Source: Levilactobacillus suantsaii
GTDB taxonomy: Bacteria; Bacillota; Bacilli; Lactobacillales; Lactobacillaceae
Direction of reading: 5' to 3'
Assembly: GCF_004115745.1 (NCBI RefSeq)
Contig: NZ_QXIL01000006.1
Location: 1 to 64,000, forward strand
DNA length: 64,000 nt
Shown: positions 12,095 through 54,561 of the stretch, piece after piece
How the letters are laid out: the number at the start of each line of letters is the position of its first letter
Numbering within the stretch: position 1 is the first letter of the stretch
Translations under genes and position numbers: made by a program
The notes under the pieces: model-generated
What the model was told of the DNA's origin: nothing
The model's database searches: none
What the model saw: only the letters and a program-made list of their open reading frames with translations

Positions 12095-12165
12095 GATCTC
12101 TCCTCAGTGAATTGGGTACTTTCACCGGTCAATCAACGTCTTGACTAATCGCGATGAACAAAAAA

Positions 12166-12201
12166 ACACCAAATAGATTCTGTGTAGAATCTACCTGGTG
12201 T
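12166..12201 (-). terminator. Attenuator terminator
   Basis: Fully paired 16-bp stem (two G-U pairs) with a 4-base loop and a trailing T run, placed inside the leader before the TrpX-like gene. Its 5' arm can pair instead with 12223-12231. Confidence 0.88.
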
Positions 12202-12343
12202 TCATCGGGCCCGATATCACTTCCAGATAGAGTCTACCCGTATCTATCTGGCGCTTAAGTCAAACTGAACTAACTTTAGCTCTTCGATAGATACAAACGC
12301 GTGGTTTGCTTGCGCTTGTATCCAACGAGAGTGGGTACAAACG

Positions 12344-12406
12344 CTACCTAAAGAAGAAGCTAAAGGCAAATTGGTTATTCAAATGAGTGAGGGGCGTGCT
12401 TAACAT
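12344..12406 (-). CDS. Phenylalanine leader peptide MLSTPLTHLNNQFAFSFFFR
   Basis: Short ORF of 20 codons with a perfect ribosome binding site (AAGGAAG, 7-base spacing) 30 bases after the predicted transcription start. Phe is at positions 13, 15, 17, 18 and 19, five of the last eight residues. This is the pattern of the pheA leader of enteric bacteria, where ribosome stalling at Phe codons when charged tRNA-Phe is scarce switches RNA folding. The stop codon abuts the first of a chain of alternative RNA segments. Role inferred; the peptide itself is probably dispensable. Confidence 0.82.
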   Translation of the reverse strand: MLSTPLTHLNNQFAFSFFFR

Positions 12407-12440
12407 GACGCATCTTCCTTTCATTTTTCAATTTACAAGT

Positions 12441-12480
12441 CTCAGTAAACCATTAAAAAATGGGGTTGTCAACCCTTATT
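12441..12480 (-). promoter_or_regulatory. Promoter of the Phe-leader operon, overlapping the degV terminator
   Basis: TTGACA (12467-12472), 17 bases, TTTACT (12444-12449). The -35 box lies in the loop and right arm of a short GGGTT/AACCC hairpin followed by a T run, which is the likely terminator of degV. Confidence 0.7.
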
Positions 12481-13375
12481 TTTTAATGGTATTCTCATTT
12501 TCGGCCGTCAAGAGGTGCTGGTAATCCAGTGACCAAGCCAAGCCCATGGCACCATCACCGACGTGGACGCCCAAGCTGGGGCCAATCAAGGCACGATCGA
12601 ATTGCACCTGCGGAAAGTGATCATGAGCGGCCATCAACCACTGTTCGGTGGTCTCGGGTTGATCGGCATTTAAAATGGTGGCCTTTAATGGGGTCGCCGC
12701 CTGGAGATCCGGCACCATTTGGGCCAACAAGTCGTCCAGCGCACTTTTCAATCGTAAGGCCGTCCCGGCAAAGCGAATCTTACCAGAATTCTCAAAGACC
12801 AGGAGCGGTTTACCTACCGGAACGTTGCTGGGGCCGTGGCCCAAATTGATTTCTCCAGTATGTAACAGGGGCTTAATAGAGTCGACCACAAAAGCCGTCT
12901 GCGCCGTTCGCCGTAATTGTTCGAGGGCCTGCAAAATCGTCGGCACGTCCGCCCCCCGTTCAACCAAGGCTGCCGCTAACCGTACCTGGTCACCCATCAC
13001 CGTCAGGATCCCCCGGGAATCCCAGGGCCAGACCTTAACGCTAGTAATTGCTTCGACATAGGAGTTCAAAGTGTTCATGAAACCTGAAATTCCACTGGTC
13101 GGCCCAATCACTACCACGTCGGTCACGCCCTGCTTGGCCAAGCGGTCACAGACTTGGTGGATAGTGGCCATCGAAATCTGCGGAGCCGTCGGAACCAGTT
13201 TCTTCGATTTACTCAAGCGGACATTGCGGTAATACTCCGCCGAGCTGAGATCTTGGTATTCGTGATACTGTCGGTTACCAAACATGATGGGCGCCGCCAA
13301 CAACGTTATCTGCCGGGCAACGGCTTCCTGCGGTGTGATTCCCGCCGACGTATCCGTAACTATGGCAATTTTCAC
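12476..13375 (-). CDS. DegV family fatty-acid-binding protein
   Basis: Two-domain lipid-binding protein; DegV/FakB proteins present fatty acids to the kinase FakA for phosphorylation. Visible motifs are DTSAGI at the start, GPTSGISGFMN near residue 92, and the C-terminal GPSLGVHVGDGAMGL segment that contacts the lipid head group. 299 residues, slightly longer than the usual 280. GTG 13375 is used after AAGGAG. It lies between two ABC importer operons but is probably transcribed alone from its own promoter. Confidence 0.9.
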   Translation of the reverse strand: MKIAIVTDTSAGITPQEAVARQITLLAAPIMFGNRQYHEYQDLSSAEYYRNVRLSKSKKLVPTAPQISMATIHQVCDRLAKQGVTDVVVIGPTSGISGFMNTLNSYVEAITSVKVWPWDSRGILTVMGDQVRLAAALVERGADVPTILQALEQLRRTAQTAFVVDSIKPLLHTGEINLGHGPSNVPVGKPLLVFENSGKIRFAGTALRLKSALDDLLAQMVPDLQAATPLKATILNADQPETTEQWLMAAHDHFPQVQFDRALIGPSLGVHVGDGAMGLAWSLDYQHLLTAENENTIKK

Positions 13376-13606: not shown

Positions 13607-13654
13607 ATGCAACTGTCTACGATGAACTTAAATGGACGTTGGCAAAGCCGGTAA
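13607..13654 (+). CDS. Tryptophan leader peptide MQLSTMNLNGRWQSR
   Basis: Fifteen-codon ORF with GAAGGA 7 bases before the ATG. It contains a single Trp codon at position 12 (13640-13642), four codons before the stop, in the context GRWQSR, reminiscent of trp leader peptides of other bacteria (GWWRTS) and of TnaC, which has one Trp. It precedes a TrpXYZ-type importer and overlaps one arm of a leader stem. A single Trp codon is weaker evidence than the Phe leader; the position, ribosome binding site and downstream terminators make it likely. Confidence 0.68.
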   Translation: MQLSTMNLNGRWQSR

Positions 13655-13736
13655 ACAAGTCGTCATCGGGTAGATGCGACTTGAGCTCACAGAGTGCTCT
13701 TCGCATCTGCGCCGGCTTAACTTTCTGATGGAAAGC

Positions 13737-13778
13737 GGTCCGCACGGATGTTTTATCCGCCAGCGGACCTTTTATTTT
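13737..13778 (+). terminator. Leader terminator 1
   Basis: GGTCCGC (13737-13743) pairs with 13763-13769, with an inner CGGAT/ATCCG stem (13745-13749, 13755-13759), followed by TTTTATTTT. Confidence 0.82.
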
Positions 13779-13810
13779 GGGGTACCCGCTGTGGCTGGGT
13801 ACCCCTTTTT
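13779..13810 (+). terminator. Leader terminator 2
   Basis: GGGGTACCC (13779-13787) pairs with 13797-13805 and is followed by five T. It stands directly after terminator 1, so two terminators guard the operon. Confidence 0.82.
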
Positions 13811-13848: not shown

Positions 13849-14844
13849 ATGAAACGATTATACGGGTTAATTGCGATTTTACTAATTTTCCTGGGGGTCG
13901 CTTATGTCCAGGAGACCCACCAACAAAAAACGAAAAAATCAAGCATGCCGACGGTCGGCATCTTACAACTCCTGTCCCACCCCGCCCTCGATTCGATTCA
14001 TAAGGGAATCATTCACGGGTTGGCAACGGAAGGTTACCACGTCAATAAGAACATCAAGATTGACTTTCAAAACGCCCAAAACGACCAGAGTAACTTGAAG
14101 ACCATGAGTGCGCGCTTCGTCAACGAAAATGCCGATGCCATGATCGGTATCGCCACCCCAGCTGCTCAGGCGTTGGCCAACGCTTCCAGTACCACTCCGG
14201 TCGTGCTCGGGGCCATCACTGATCCCAAGGGCGCCGATTTGGTCAAGAGTAACACCCGTCCGGGGACCAACGTTACCGGGGTCTCTGACCAAGCACCACT
14301 CAAGGCCCAGCTTAAATTGATTCAAAAAATCATGCCCAAGATGAAGCATCTCGGCATCATCTACACCTCGTCGGACGACTCGGCGACCGCGCAATACCAC
14401 AAATTTGCGTCCCTTTGCAAAAAAGAACATGTTGACCTTAAGGCTTACTCCATCGCCAACACCAACGACTTGAACCAGGTCGCCCAGCGAATGGTCTCTC
14501 AAGTCGACGCGGTCTACGTGCCGACCGACAATACGGTGGCCAGTGCCATGCAAACGCTAGTTGCGACCGCCAACACCAAAAAGGTCCCCGTCTTCCCAGC
14601 TGTGGACACCATGGTCAAGGCCGGGGGACTGGCCACCTTGAGTATCGACCAGTACAAGCTAGGCGTTCAAACCGGCAAGATGACCGCTGCCATCTTAAAG
14701 GGTAAGGACCCGGCCACCACCCCCATCAAGTTCGAAAGTCACGGGGAAATGACCGTTAATCTAAAAACTGCAAAAAAATTAGGCATCACGTTACCGAAAT
14801 CTGTCGTTAAAGAAGCTAAACAACACGGGGAGGTCTTCAAATGA
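13849..14844 (+). CDS. trpX: Tryptophan ABC importer substrate-binding protein TrpX
   Basis: Extracytoplasmic binding protein of PF04392. Unlike its paralogue at 11126-12094 it has no lipobox; the N-terminus (MKRLYGLIAILLIFLGVAYV) is a membrane anchor, so it stays membrane-tethered by a helix. Family motifs are VGILQLLSHPALDSI, FQNAQNDQSNLKTMS, GIATPAAQALA and VPTDNTVASAM. The ATG at 13849 was chosen because the longer frame would begin inside terminator 2. The stop overlaps the permease ATG. Tryptophan is inferred from similarity to streptococcal TrpX and from the Trp leader peptide. 331 residues. Confidence 0.92.
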   Translation: MKRLYGLIAILLIFLGVAYVQETHQQKTKKSSMPTVGILQLLSHPALDSIHKGIIHGLATEGYHVNKNIKIDFQNAQNDQSNLKTMSARFVNENADAMIGIATPAAQALANASSTTPVVLGAITDPKGADLVKSNTRPGTNVTGVSDQAPLKAQLKLIQKIMPKMKHLGIIYTSSDDSATAQYHKFASLCKKEHVDLKAYSIANTNDLNQVAQRMVSQVDAVYVPTDNTVASAMQTLVATANTKKVPVFPAVDTMVKAGGLATLSIDQYKLGVQTGKMTAAILKGKDPATTPIKFESHGEMTVNLKTAKKLGITLPKSVVKEAKQHGEVFK

Positions 14845-42667: not shown

Positions 42668-42789
42668 GTGGGGCCTCACTGTTTTTCAGCCACACGGTTG
42701 CACGTCTGAATAGGTCAAACCTTAGGTACGATTGTTTTCGTTAGCGGTTGCATTTTTCTTCAAAACTCGTTACGCTAGATAGTAATTTG

Positions 42790-42868
42790 AATCCGCGGGG
42801 TGCCCATATTCGGCTGAGAACAAACCCATTGAACCTGCTCTGGACAATTCCAGCGAAGGGACGGTGAA
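42790..42868 (+). promoter_or_regulatory. TPP riboswitch (THI element)
   Basis: Hallmarks in order: GGGGTGCCC, GGCTGAGAA, ACCCATTGAACCTG and GCGAAGGGACGG. This is the thiamine pyrophosphate aptamer; with TPP bound the following terminator (42884-42925) forms and shuts off ykoEDC. Confidence 0.95.
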
Positions 42869-42883
42869 TGACTCAAGCAAACT

Positions 42884-54375: not shown

Positions 54376-54438
54376 AACTGTATTGTTTTTTTCATAACTT
54401 CGTGTTAGAGTAGTCACTATTCTAATTAAAACATGTAA

Positions 54439-54508
54439 TTGCCTATATAATGCCATGATAAGGGTGGCAAGTTTCTACCTAGAACCGTAAATTCTAGACT
54501 ATAAGCAA
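54439..54508 (+). promoter_or_regulatory. Purine riboswitch, guanine type
   Basis: P1 (TTGC-TATA / TATA-GCAA), J1/2 TATAAT, loop 2 region GATAAGG, J2/3 GTTTCTACC, loop 3 ACCGTAAA and J3/1 GACTATA are all present. The C in GACTATA marks guanine/xanthine recognition. It lies 142 bases before the permease start, with a terminator between. Confidence 0.93.
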
Positions 54509-54561
54509 ATTGAGGCCCCGAACTCTTTTTGCCGATGAAAAGTGTTCGTCGGCAGAACTTT

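Follow-up and report, generated by a model that had tools for sequence, protein, structure and literature searches.

A phenylalanine-codon leader ahead of a PF04392-type importer in Levilactobacillus as a probable transcription attenuator, and its variously coded relatives across Lactobacillales

A 64,000-nucleotide stretch of Levilactobacillus suantsaii DNA (hereafter the window) carries a short phenylalanine-rich reading frame ahead of an ABC importer operon whose binding protein belongs to PF04392. We conclude that this leader very probably attenuates transcription through the translating ribosome, with charged tRNA-Phe as the signal and read-through into the importer on Phe shortage. That the ribosome stalls, in which direction the system responds and what the importer carries are all inferred from sequence and modelled folds. 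The leader does not stand alone; searches with covariance models place it as one member of a class spread across the order. It seems likely that the class goes back to a single attenuator RNA, which spread through the Lactobacillales by duplication and was repeatedly recoded for Phe, Tyr, Trp or Ile/Leu, working beside the T-box.

The predicted 20-codon frame, with Phe at positions 13, 15, 17, 18 and 19, proved exact on the translating minus strand, and the proposed ribosome binding site is present ahead of it (Table 1). Of the promoter and terminator claimed on either side, the terminator was confirmed as a strong hairpin (12203-12164) of 18 pairs with a run of T ahead of the importer. The promoter is plausible at best: its -10-like element shares four of six positions with TATAAT, and a consensus scan of the window made no call there. 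The candidate -35 lies within an inverted repeat that trails the upstream gene (13375-12476). The window leader RNA folds 5.35 standard deviations below its shuffles, none of 100 being as stable. The locus presents the features of an attenuator: an ORF with a Shine-Dalgarno sequence, codons of the pathway, an intrinsic terminator between ORF and gene, and an antiterminator that excludes it. A palindrome, ATCGGGCCCGAT (12204-12215), lies between segments H and I and is kept across the genus.

Table 1. Positions of the leader, RNA and importer features in the window.
Feature	Position	Strand	Basis or detail
Leader ORF, MLSTPLTHLNNQFAFSFFFR and stop	12344..12406	minus	translation and genus alignment
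Shine-Dalgarno AAGGAAG of leader ORF	12414..12420	minus	sequence
-35 TTGACA	12467..12472	minus	sequence; within inverted repeat 12449-12490
-10-like TTTACT, spacer 17 nt	12444..12449	minus	sequence
Segment A, GCCTTTAGCTTCTTC, Ala, Phe, Ser codons	12353..12367	minus	covariation and partner swap
Segment B, AGCGTTTGTACCC, overlaps stop codon, pairs with C	12333..12345	minus	covariation and swap
Segment C, GGATACAAGCGC, partner B or D	12312..12323	minus	covariation and swap
Segment D, GCGTTTGTATCTATC, partner C or G	12286..12300	minus	covariation and swap
Segment E, GAAGAGCTAAAG, partner A	12274..12285	minus	covariation and swap
Segment G, CCAGATAGATAC, partner D or H	12240..12251	minus	covariation and swap
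Segment H, ACTCTATCTGG, partner G or I	12223..12233	minus	covariation and swap
Segment I, AACACCAGGTAGATTCTAC, pairs with H as antiterminator or with J as 5' arm of the terminator	12184..12202	minus	swap
Segment J with T run, 3' arm of the terminator	12160..12181	minus	terminator call and swap
Substrate-binding lipoprotein, PF04392	11126..12094	minus	domain search; under TrpX equivalog cut-off
Permease, PF02653	10108..11109	minus	domain search
ATPase, PF00005	9444..10226	minus	domain search
Leader ORF of second importer, MQLSTMNLNGRWQSR and stop, one Trp codon	13607..13654	plus	translation
Trp leader RNA	13645..13805	plus	AAGCCGG/CCGGCTT, CAAGTCG..CATC / GATGCGACTTG / TTCGCATC
Binding protein of second importer, TrpX equivalog	13849..14844	plus	486.9 bits, cut-off 390

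On sequence evidence, the switch is a chain in which the helices B:C, D:G and H:I (antitermination) alternate with C:D, G:H and I:J (termination), and A:E, which holds the sensing codons, is read as excluding D:G. The part of A that pairs with E is its core, CTTTAGC (12365-12359). The antiterminator H:I and the terminator I:J are mutually exclusive through their shared segment I. Covariation was examined in an alignment of 103 members (A4) fitted to the structure A:E, C:D, G:H. With that fit, 93.2% of the cells of the three helices were paired, versus 81.6% after shuffling and 32-39% after sliding, and both-sided changes occurred in 34 of 38 pairs. Two helices outside the fit, D:G (83.0% paired versus 77.7% shuffled and 24-42% slid; both-sided changes in 8/8 pairs) and B:C (91.4% versus 85.7% and 27-58%; 8/10), use columns that also belong to C:D and G:H, and the shuffles ignore kinship.

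In a partner-swap test on the same 103 sequences, each segment's own partner was set against the median partner taken from other loci. The own partner was the stronger in 95 sequences for B:C, 92 for C:D, 96 for G:H, 99 for H:I, 103 for I:J, 89 for A:E and 76 for D:G, and the terminator was present in all 103 relatives. Six pairs that had not been predicted scored 46-57, but E:G reached 72 and B:D 82. D:G thus barely exceeds the former and trails the latter, with a larger mean energy gain (2.1 versus 0.3 and 0.7 kcal/mol). An E:F hairpin considered as an extra switch was dropped, its own pairs barely beating swapped ones (60/103).

When Phe is plentiful, the ribosome would reach the stop codon overlapping B and mask that segment. 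With B masked, C:D and G:H and then I:J would form, terminating transcription ahead of the importer. When Phe is short, a ribosome stalled on the Phe codons would mask A, block A:E and leave B free; B:C, D:G and H:I would then form and transcription would continue into the importer. The substrate would be Phe, perhaps Phe/Tyr.

The position of the ribosome was modelled by masked folding of the RNA up to the terminator loop in 101 of the 103 sequences, these being equilibrium folds of a kinetic process. Moving the mask from the stop codon to an A-site at codon -4 raised H:I in 55 sequences, lowered it in 8 and left it unchanged in 38; D:G rose in 63 and fell in none, and G:H fell in 54 and rose in 8; across the three helices, 38-39 sequences showed no change. 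Under mask edge P+12, mean D:G and H:I peaked for A-sites from codon -3 to -7, and under edge P+15 from -4 to -8, in both cases inside the sensing block. A ribosome stalled on the last Phe codon would itself mask part of B. Among the relatives, the share with H:I above G:H went from 0.32-0.34 with the mask at stop to about 0.5 when stalled, and we regard the modelled effect across relatives as moderate. For the window itself, the stalled mask gave D:G 9.4 and H:I 8.8, and the mask at stop G:H 8.7 and H:I 0.4. Folded without a ribosome, the window RNA favours the antiterminator in the model (H:I 8.9), in contrast with classical superattenuation; this value may carry little weight if the leader is always translated. 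Relatives folded without a ribosome lean to G:H on average, with H:I above G:H in 36%.

The importer was found in 32 of 35 Levilactobacillus genomes, and the leader in all 32; the other three (G001, G033, G034) have a paralogue of the importer only. All 20 codons and the ending QFAFSFFFR were retained in the 29 of 29 genus loci holding the region. In the remaining importer-bearing genomes (G005, G011, G009) the leader was found by the covariance model R1, with the leader and an importer fragment on different contigs in G009. The case named in the original prediction as its refutation, loss of the ORF or its Phe codons while importer and stems are kept, was absent from the 32 importer-bearing genomes. 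Its proposed check, that Phe codons and not their flanks should be conserved, fails within the genus: codons and flanks are both kept, and the codon block is nearly invariant at the DNA and the peptide level. An exact-pattern scan of named genomes returned 59 records from Levilactobacillus, Companilactobacillus, Lactiplantibacillus, Pediococcus, Lentilactobacillus, Weissella and a few Lactobacillus sp.

Beyond the genus, R1, built from the genus leader, matched in 99 of 397 genomes of the family and 17 of 40 genera. Its weaker matches were not noise, since they comprised leaders with Phe, Tyr or Trp codons ahead of other aromatic genes. A second covariance model, R2, matched in 246 of the 395 genomes sampled from Lactobacillales (62 of 80 genera) and, at class level, in 35 of 398, of which 30 were Lactobacillales. 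A third, R3, matched in 4 of 398 genomes at phylum level, three of them Lactobacillales; it had been planned as a model of the C:D and G:H scaffold, RNAalifold yielded B:C only (10 pairs), and it was used in that form. All these genome counts are lower bounds, because searches of more than 40 genomes ran under stricter filters. Every one of 128 loci examined has an ATG leader, and 124 have a Shine-Dalgarno sequence. Because aromatic residues had partly guided the choice of leader, the three frames were compared as a control: an ORF with Shine-Dalgarno and ATG reaching the expected stop was found in the leader frame of 159 of 173 R1/R2 matches, versus 1 and 0 in the remaining two, and in 34 of 37 R3 loci, whose model lacks codons, versus 2 and 0. 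Codons -12 to -9 displayed no third-position bias (differences 231/107/170), so that part gave no codon-level signal. The window genome holds a second member of the class, L147 (G000:C39:4167-4294, contig 39), with a leader ending TAYYLGLVYFR; the mask model predicts no switching for it.

Leader codons were compared with the downstream gene in 198 distinct records. All 15 branched-chain genes had Ile/Leu/Val leaders, and none of the 181 records assigned to other functions did (Fisher 9e-23, kinship uncorrected). The Ile/Leu/Val-coded form of the scaffold comes from a single family of the order, f5, where it precedes ilvA-, ilvB-, ilvE- and livJ-like genes. Representatives of the branched-chain aminotransferase (443.2 bits, cut-off 307), threonine ammonia-lyase (405.5, cut-off 378.75) and acetolactate synthase (593.1, cut-off 538.35) exceeded their thresholds and the livJ-type representative matched Peripla_BP_6; the other branched-chain records were assigned by BLAST to representatives. 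The recoded blocks read IISIIR or LLISVIR with the scaffold retained, and 12 of 15 outdo the median aromatic block in pairing to their own E, E having been placed by a simple motif that misplaced it in L344 and L371 at least.

Aromatic leaders likewise stand before aromatic genes. Phe/Tyr leaders precede aroE-like genes (23/23) and a fusion of MFS transporter and chorismate mutase (11/11; domains checked in L083 and L289), which in L083 adjoins chorismate synthase. Leaders with Phe, Tyr and Trp codons precede transketolase (2/2) and two of six aminotransferases, the other four having Phe/Tyr leaders. Prephenate dehydratase has a Phe-only leader in three of four records, one of the three (L295) doubtful. 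A protein starting HTLGP has a Phe-only leader in all six records (L087, L104, L106, L108, L119, L121); its six members had no Pfam match at all (two scanned at E 0.001, four at 1e-30) and no NCBIfam match, and it is a candidate for a Phe-specific enzyme that may resemble prephenate dehydratase. Transporter-like genes of the SBP_bac_3 (L309, L329, L330, L356), CitMHS (L331) and PTS_EIIC_2 (L112, L332) types also lie behind Phe/Tyr leaders and are predicted to handle aromatic amino acids. At L159 and L185 the first gene encodes about 660 residues with a binding-protein-like start and is followed by an ATPase-like gene, which suggests a candidate fusion of binding protein and permease.

A further reading of substrate is offered by the binding proteins. 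In the accessible text of PMC6816091, crystal structures of the PF04392 type are described for VC_1101 with Phe (A246/Y262), SP1069 with Trp (A268/Q284) and CD0873 with Tyr (E263/Y279), with specificity attributed by the authors to these two pocket positions. We transferred the positions by alignment to 125 binding proteins. The second was Q in all six with a Trp-coded leader and Y or F in 118 of the 119 others; the sole other Q belonged to L381, whose leader, overlooked by the script, proved on reading to be Trp-coded too (ending NSWQSQ; R3 match 30.6 bits). The first position was acidic in 12 proteins, whose leaders had a mean Tyr share of Phe plus Tyr codons of 0.78, compared with 0.27 in 106 others (p 2e-7, kinship uncorrected). 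The converse fails: Tyr-rich or Tyr-only leaders (L325, L368, L375 and others) also occur with Ser or Ala as the first residue. Within one genus, Tyr-coded and Phe-coded leaders are neighbours (L306/L314, L307/L315, L319/L305), a YYYGYYG leader going with the acidic residue and an FFAGFFG or FFAGFFFG leader with Ala. By these comparisons the aromatic codons of the leaders agree with the published specificity residues. The protein behind the window Phe leader has the pocket S/Y and scored 311.5 against the TrpX equivalog NF041285, below its cut-off of 390.

The second, divergent importer has a TrpX-type binding protein with the pocket V/Q and a leader RNA with two terminator-like hairpins. A Trp leader ending LNGRWQSR recurs in 19 of 20 further loci of the genus. 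Judged by codons and pockets, the window carries Phe-coded and Trp-coded importers back to back. R3 aligns the window Trp leader exactly from the stop codon, at only 2.6 bits, so a likeness to the scaffold in layout is all that the match supports; an RF04312 trpB match there, below gathering (25.6 bits, E 0.86), was also set aside.

At gathering score, an Rfam scan matched the window leader to no family, T-box and riboswitches included; even the permissive scan (E up to 10) returned no T-box, nor did Phe_leader match in either scan. Elsewhere in the window lie a purine riboswitch (54423-54521, plus strand) and a TPP riboswitch (42786-42878, plus strand), both from the Rfam scan. The claim of a stalling Phe leader before a PF04392 importer is supported by conservation in the genus, by the exclusive helices and by the mask fold of the window (38 of 101 relatives being unchanged), and is further backed by the absence of a family match at gathering score and by a binding protein that lies below the TrpX cut-off with S/Y, not V/Q, in its pocket.

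Other readings of the same RNA were weighed. The leader could be a metabolite riboswitch or a T-box-like sensor of tRNA in which the Phe codons are kept merely as RNA sequence, as might be expected of a block that is near-invariant as DNA in the genus and pairs with E. We consider this the least credible reading, given the scan results, the shift of codons among Phe, Tyr, Trp, Ile and Leu with gene function, and the fact that the codons are in frame with an ATG and Shine-Dalgarno sequence lying outside the covariance models. Alternatively, the peptide end FSFFFR might arrest the ribosome when a free aromatic amino acid is present, so that the ligand would not be uncharged tRNA; TnaC is a case of nascent-peptide arrest with Trp. 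The C-terminal residues are indeed unusually constant, with F at -2 in 118 and R at -1 in 107 of 128 leaders. That some classes have other residues in place of S and R (endings FFAGFFFG, YYYGYFG, YYYFRFFS) is evidence against arrest, and a specific nascent-chain pocket would hardly tolerate the recoding of the whole block to IISIIR or LLISVIR on a kept scaffold. We hold arrest to be improbable.

A further reading arises from RF02863, sRNA_2410, which 9 of 20 scanned relatives with aromatic leaders match above the gathering score of 61 (70.7-166.9 bits; eight of the nine in family f3), the best being L154, upstream of a PF04392 importer. The window leader scores 32.2 bits, below that threshold. 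The element could accordingly be an independent trans-acting sRNA, as its name implies, with the ORF incidental, and the Enterococcus faecium RNA of 195 nt gave two transcripts on Northern blots (PMC5593968, accessible text). A terminated leader would likewise yield a short RNA, which the E. faecium transcripts resemble. A trans-acting role also fails to explain the place upstream of aromatic genes, the ORF frame (159 of 173 versus 1 and 0) and the match of codons to genes, and it appears very unlikely. By sequence, sRNA_2410 is the same element as the aromatic-leader relatives; the accessible text of PMC5593968 contains none of 'leader', 'uORF' and 'attenuat', and names no leader ORF or function for it.

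Attenuation by a translating ribosome remains the preferred reading. Under the proposed recoding, the B/C/D/G/H/I/J scaffold and its link to the stop codon would be kept while mainly the codon block and E were exchanged. The same scaffold would have been copied and recoded in Lactobacillales for Tyr, Trp and Ile/Leu, and its targets would be importers and shikimate, prephenate dehydratase, transaminase, transketolase, ilv and liv genes.

The enteric pheA and pheST leaders (Rfam Phe_leader, RF01859) combine a short Phe-rich ORF with alternative helices and a terminator ahead of a Phe gene. The window leader is alike in ORF, helices and terminator; it differs in that its stop codon overlaps B, it would control an importer, the chain of helices is longer, the codon block itself pairs (A:E) and Rfam Phe_leader does not match. 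The original prediction named the T-box as the normal route for such control in Firmicutes. The lack of a T-box match agrees with its Phe-leader reading, and the generalization itself needs tempering: in the accessible text of the papers concerned, leader peptides of Firmicutes had earlier been put forward or demonstrated for His (PMC2965389, PMC9413887) and for branched-chain amino acids in Listeria Rli60 (PMC5864092) and S. aureus ilv-leu (PMC5794164). The latter two are experimentally supported ribosome-mediated attenuators and, as far as their descriptions allow comparison, differ in being branched-chain leaders ahead of ilvD (PMC5864092, PMC5794164). Also likened by description, uORFC-13-1 of Acholeplasma is a proposed Phe-codon uORF beside a terminator and before an aromatic gene, aroF, its 24 representatives coming from a single genus and from environmental sequences (PMC8632094, accessible text). 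Streptococcal trpXYZ, a related importer under attenuation, has a Trp T-box that, in the text available, senses tRNA directly (PMC9382623), unlike the window leader with its lack of a T-box match. A literature search with partial coverage and few subscription journals returned no account of the class as a leader-peptide attenuator, and none of six leader peptide strings in the text searched. As a mechanism, ribosome-mediated attenuation is established; what appears new is this class, together with how widely it occurs and how it has been recoded in nature.

T-boxes are the usual explanation for amino-acid control in Lactobacillales. A class of leader peptides present in 246 of 395 sampled genomes would be the order's second major amino-acid sensor and would account for an Enterococcus 'sRNA' family. 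The leader codons would be a readable label of transporter substrate and, if this is true, would predict the substrates of uncharacterised transporters. The class would likewise constitute a codon-programmable amino-acid sensor, and natural recoding between aromatic and branched-chain codons on one scaffold opens a direct codon-swap and inducer-swap experiment.
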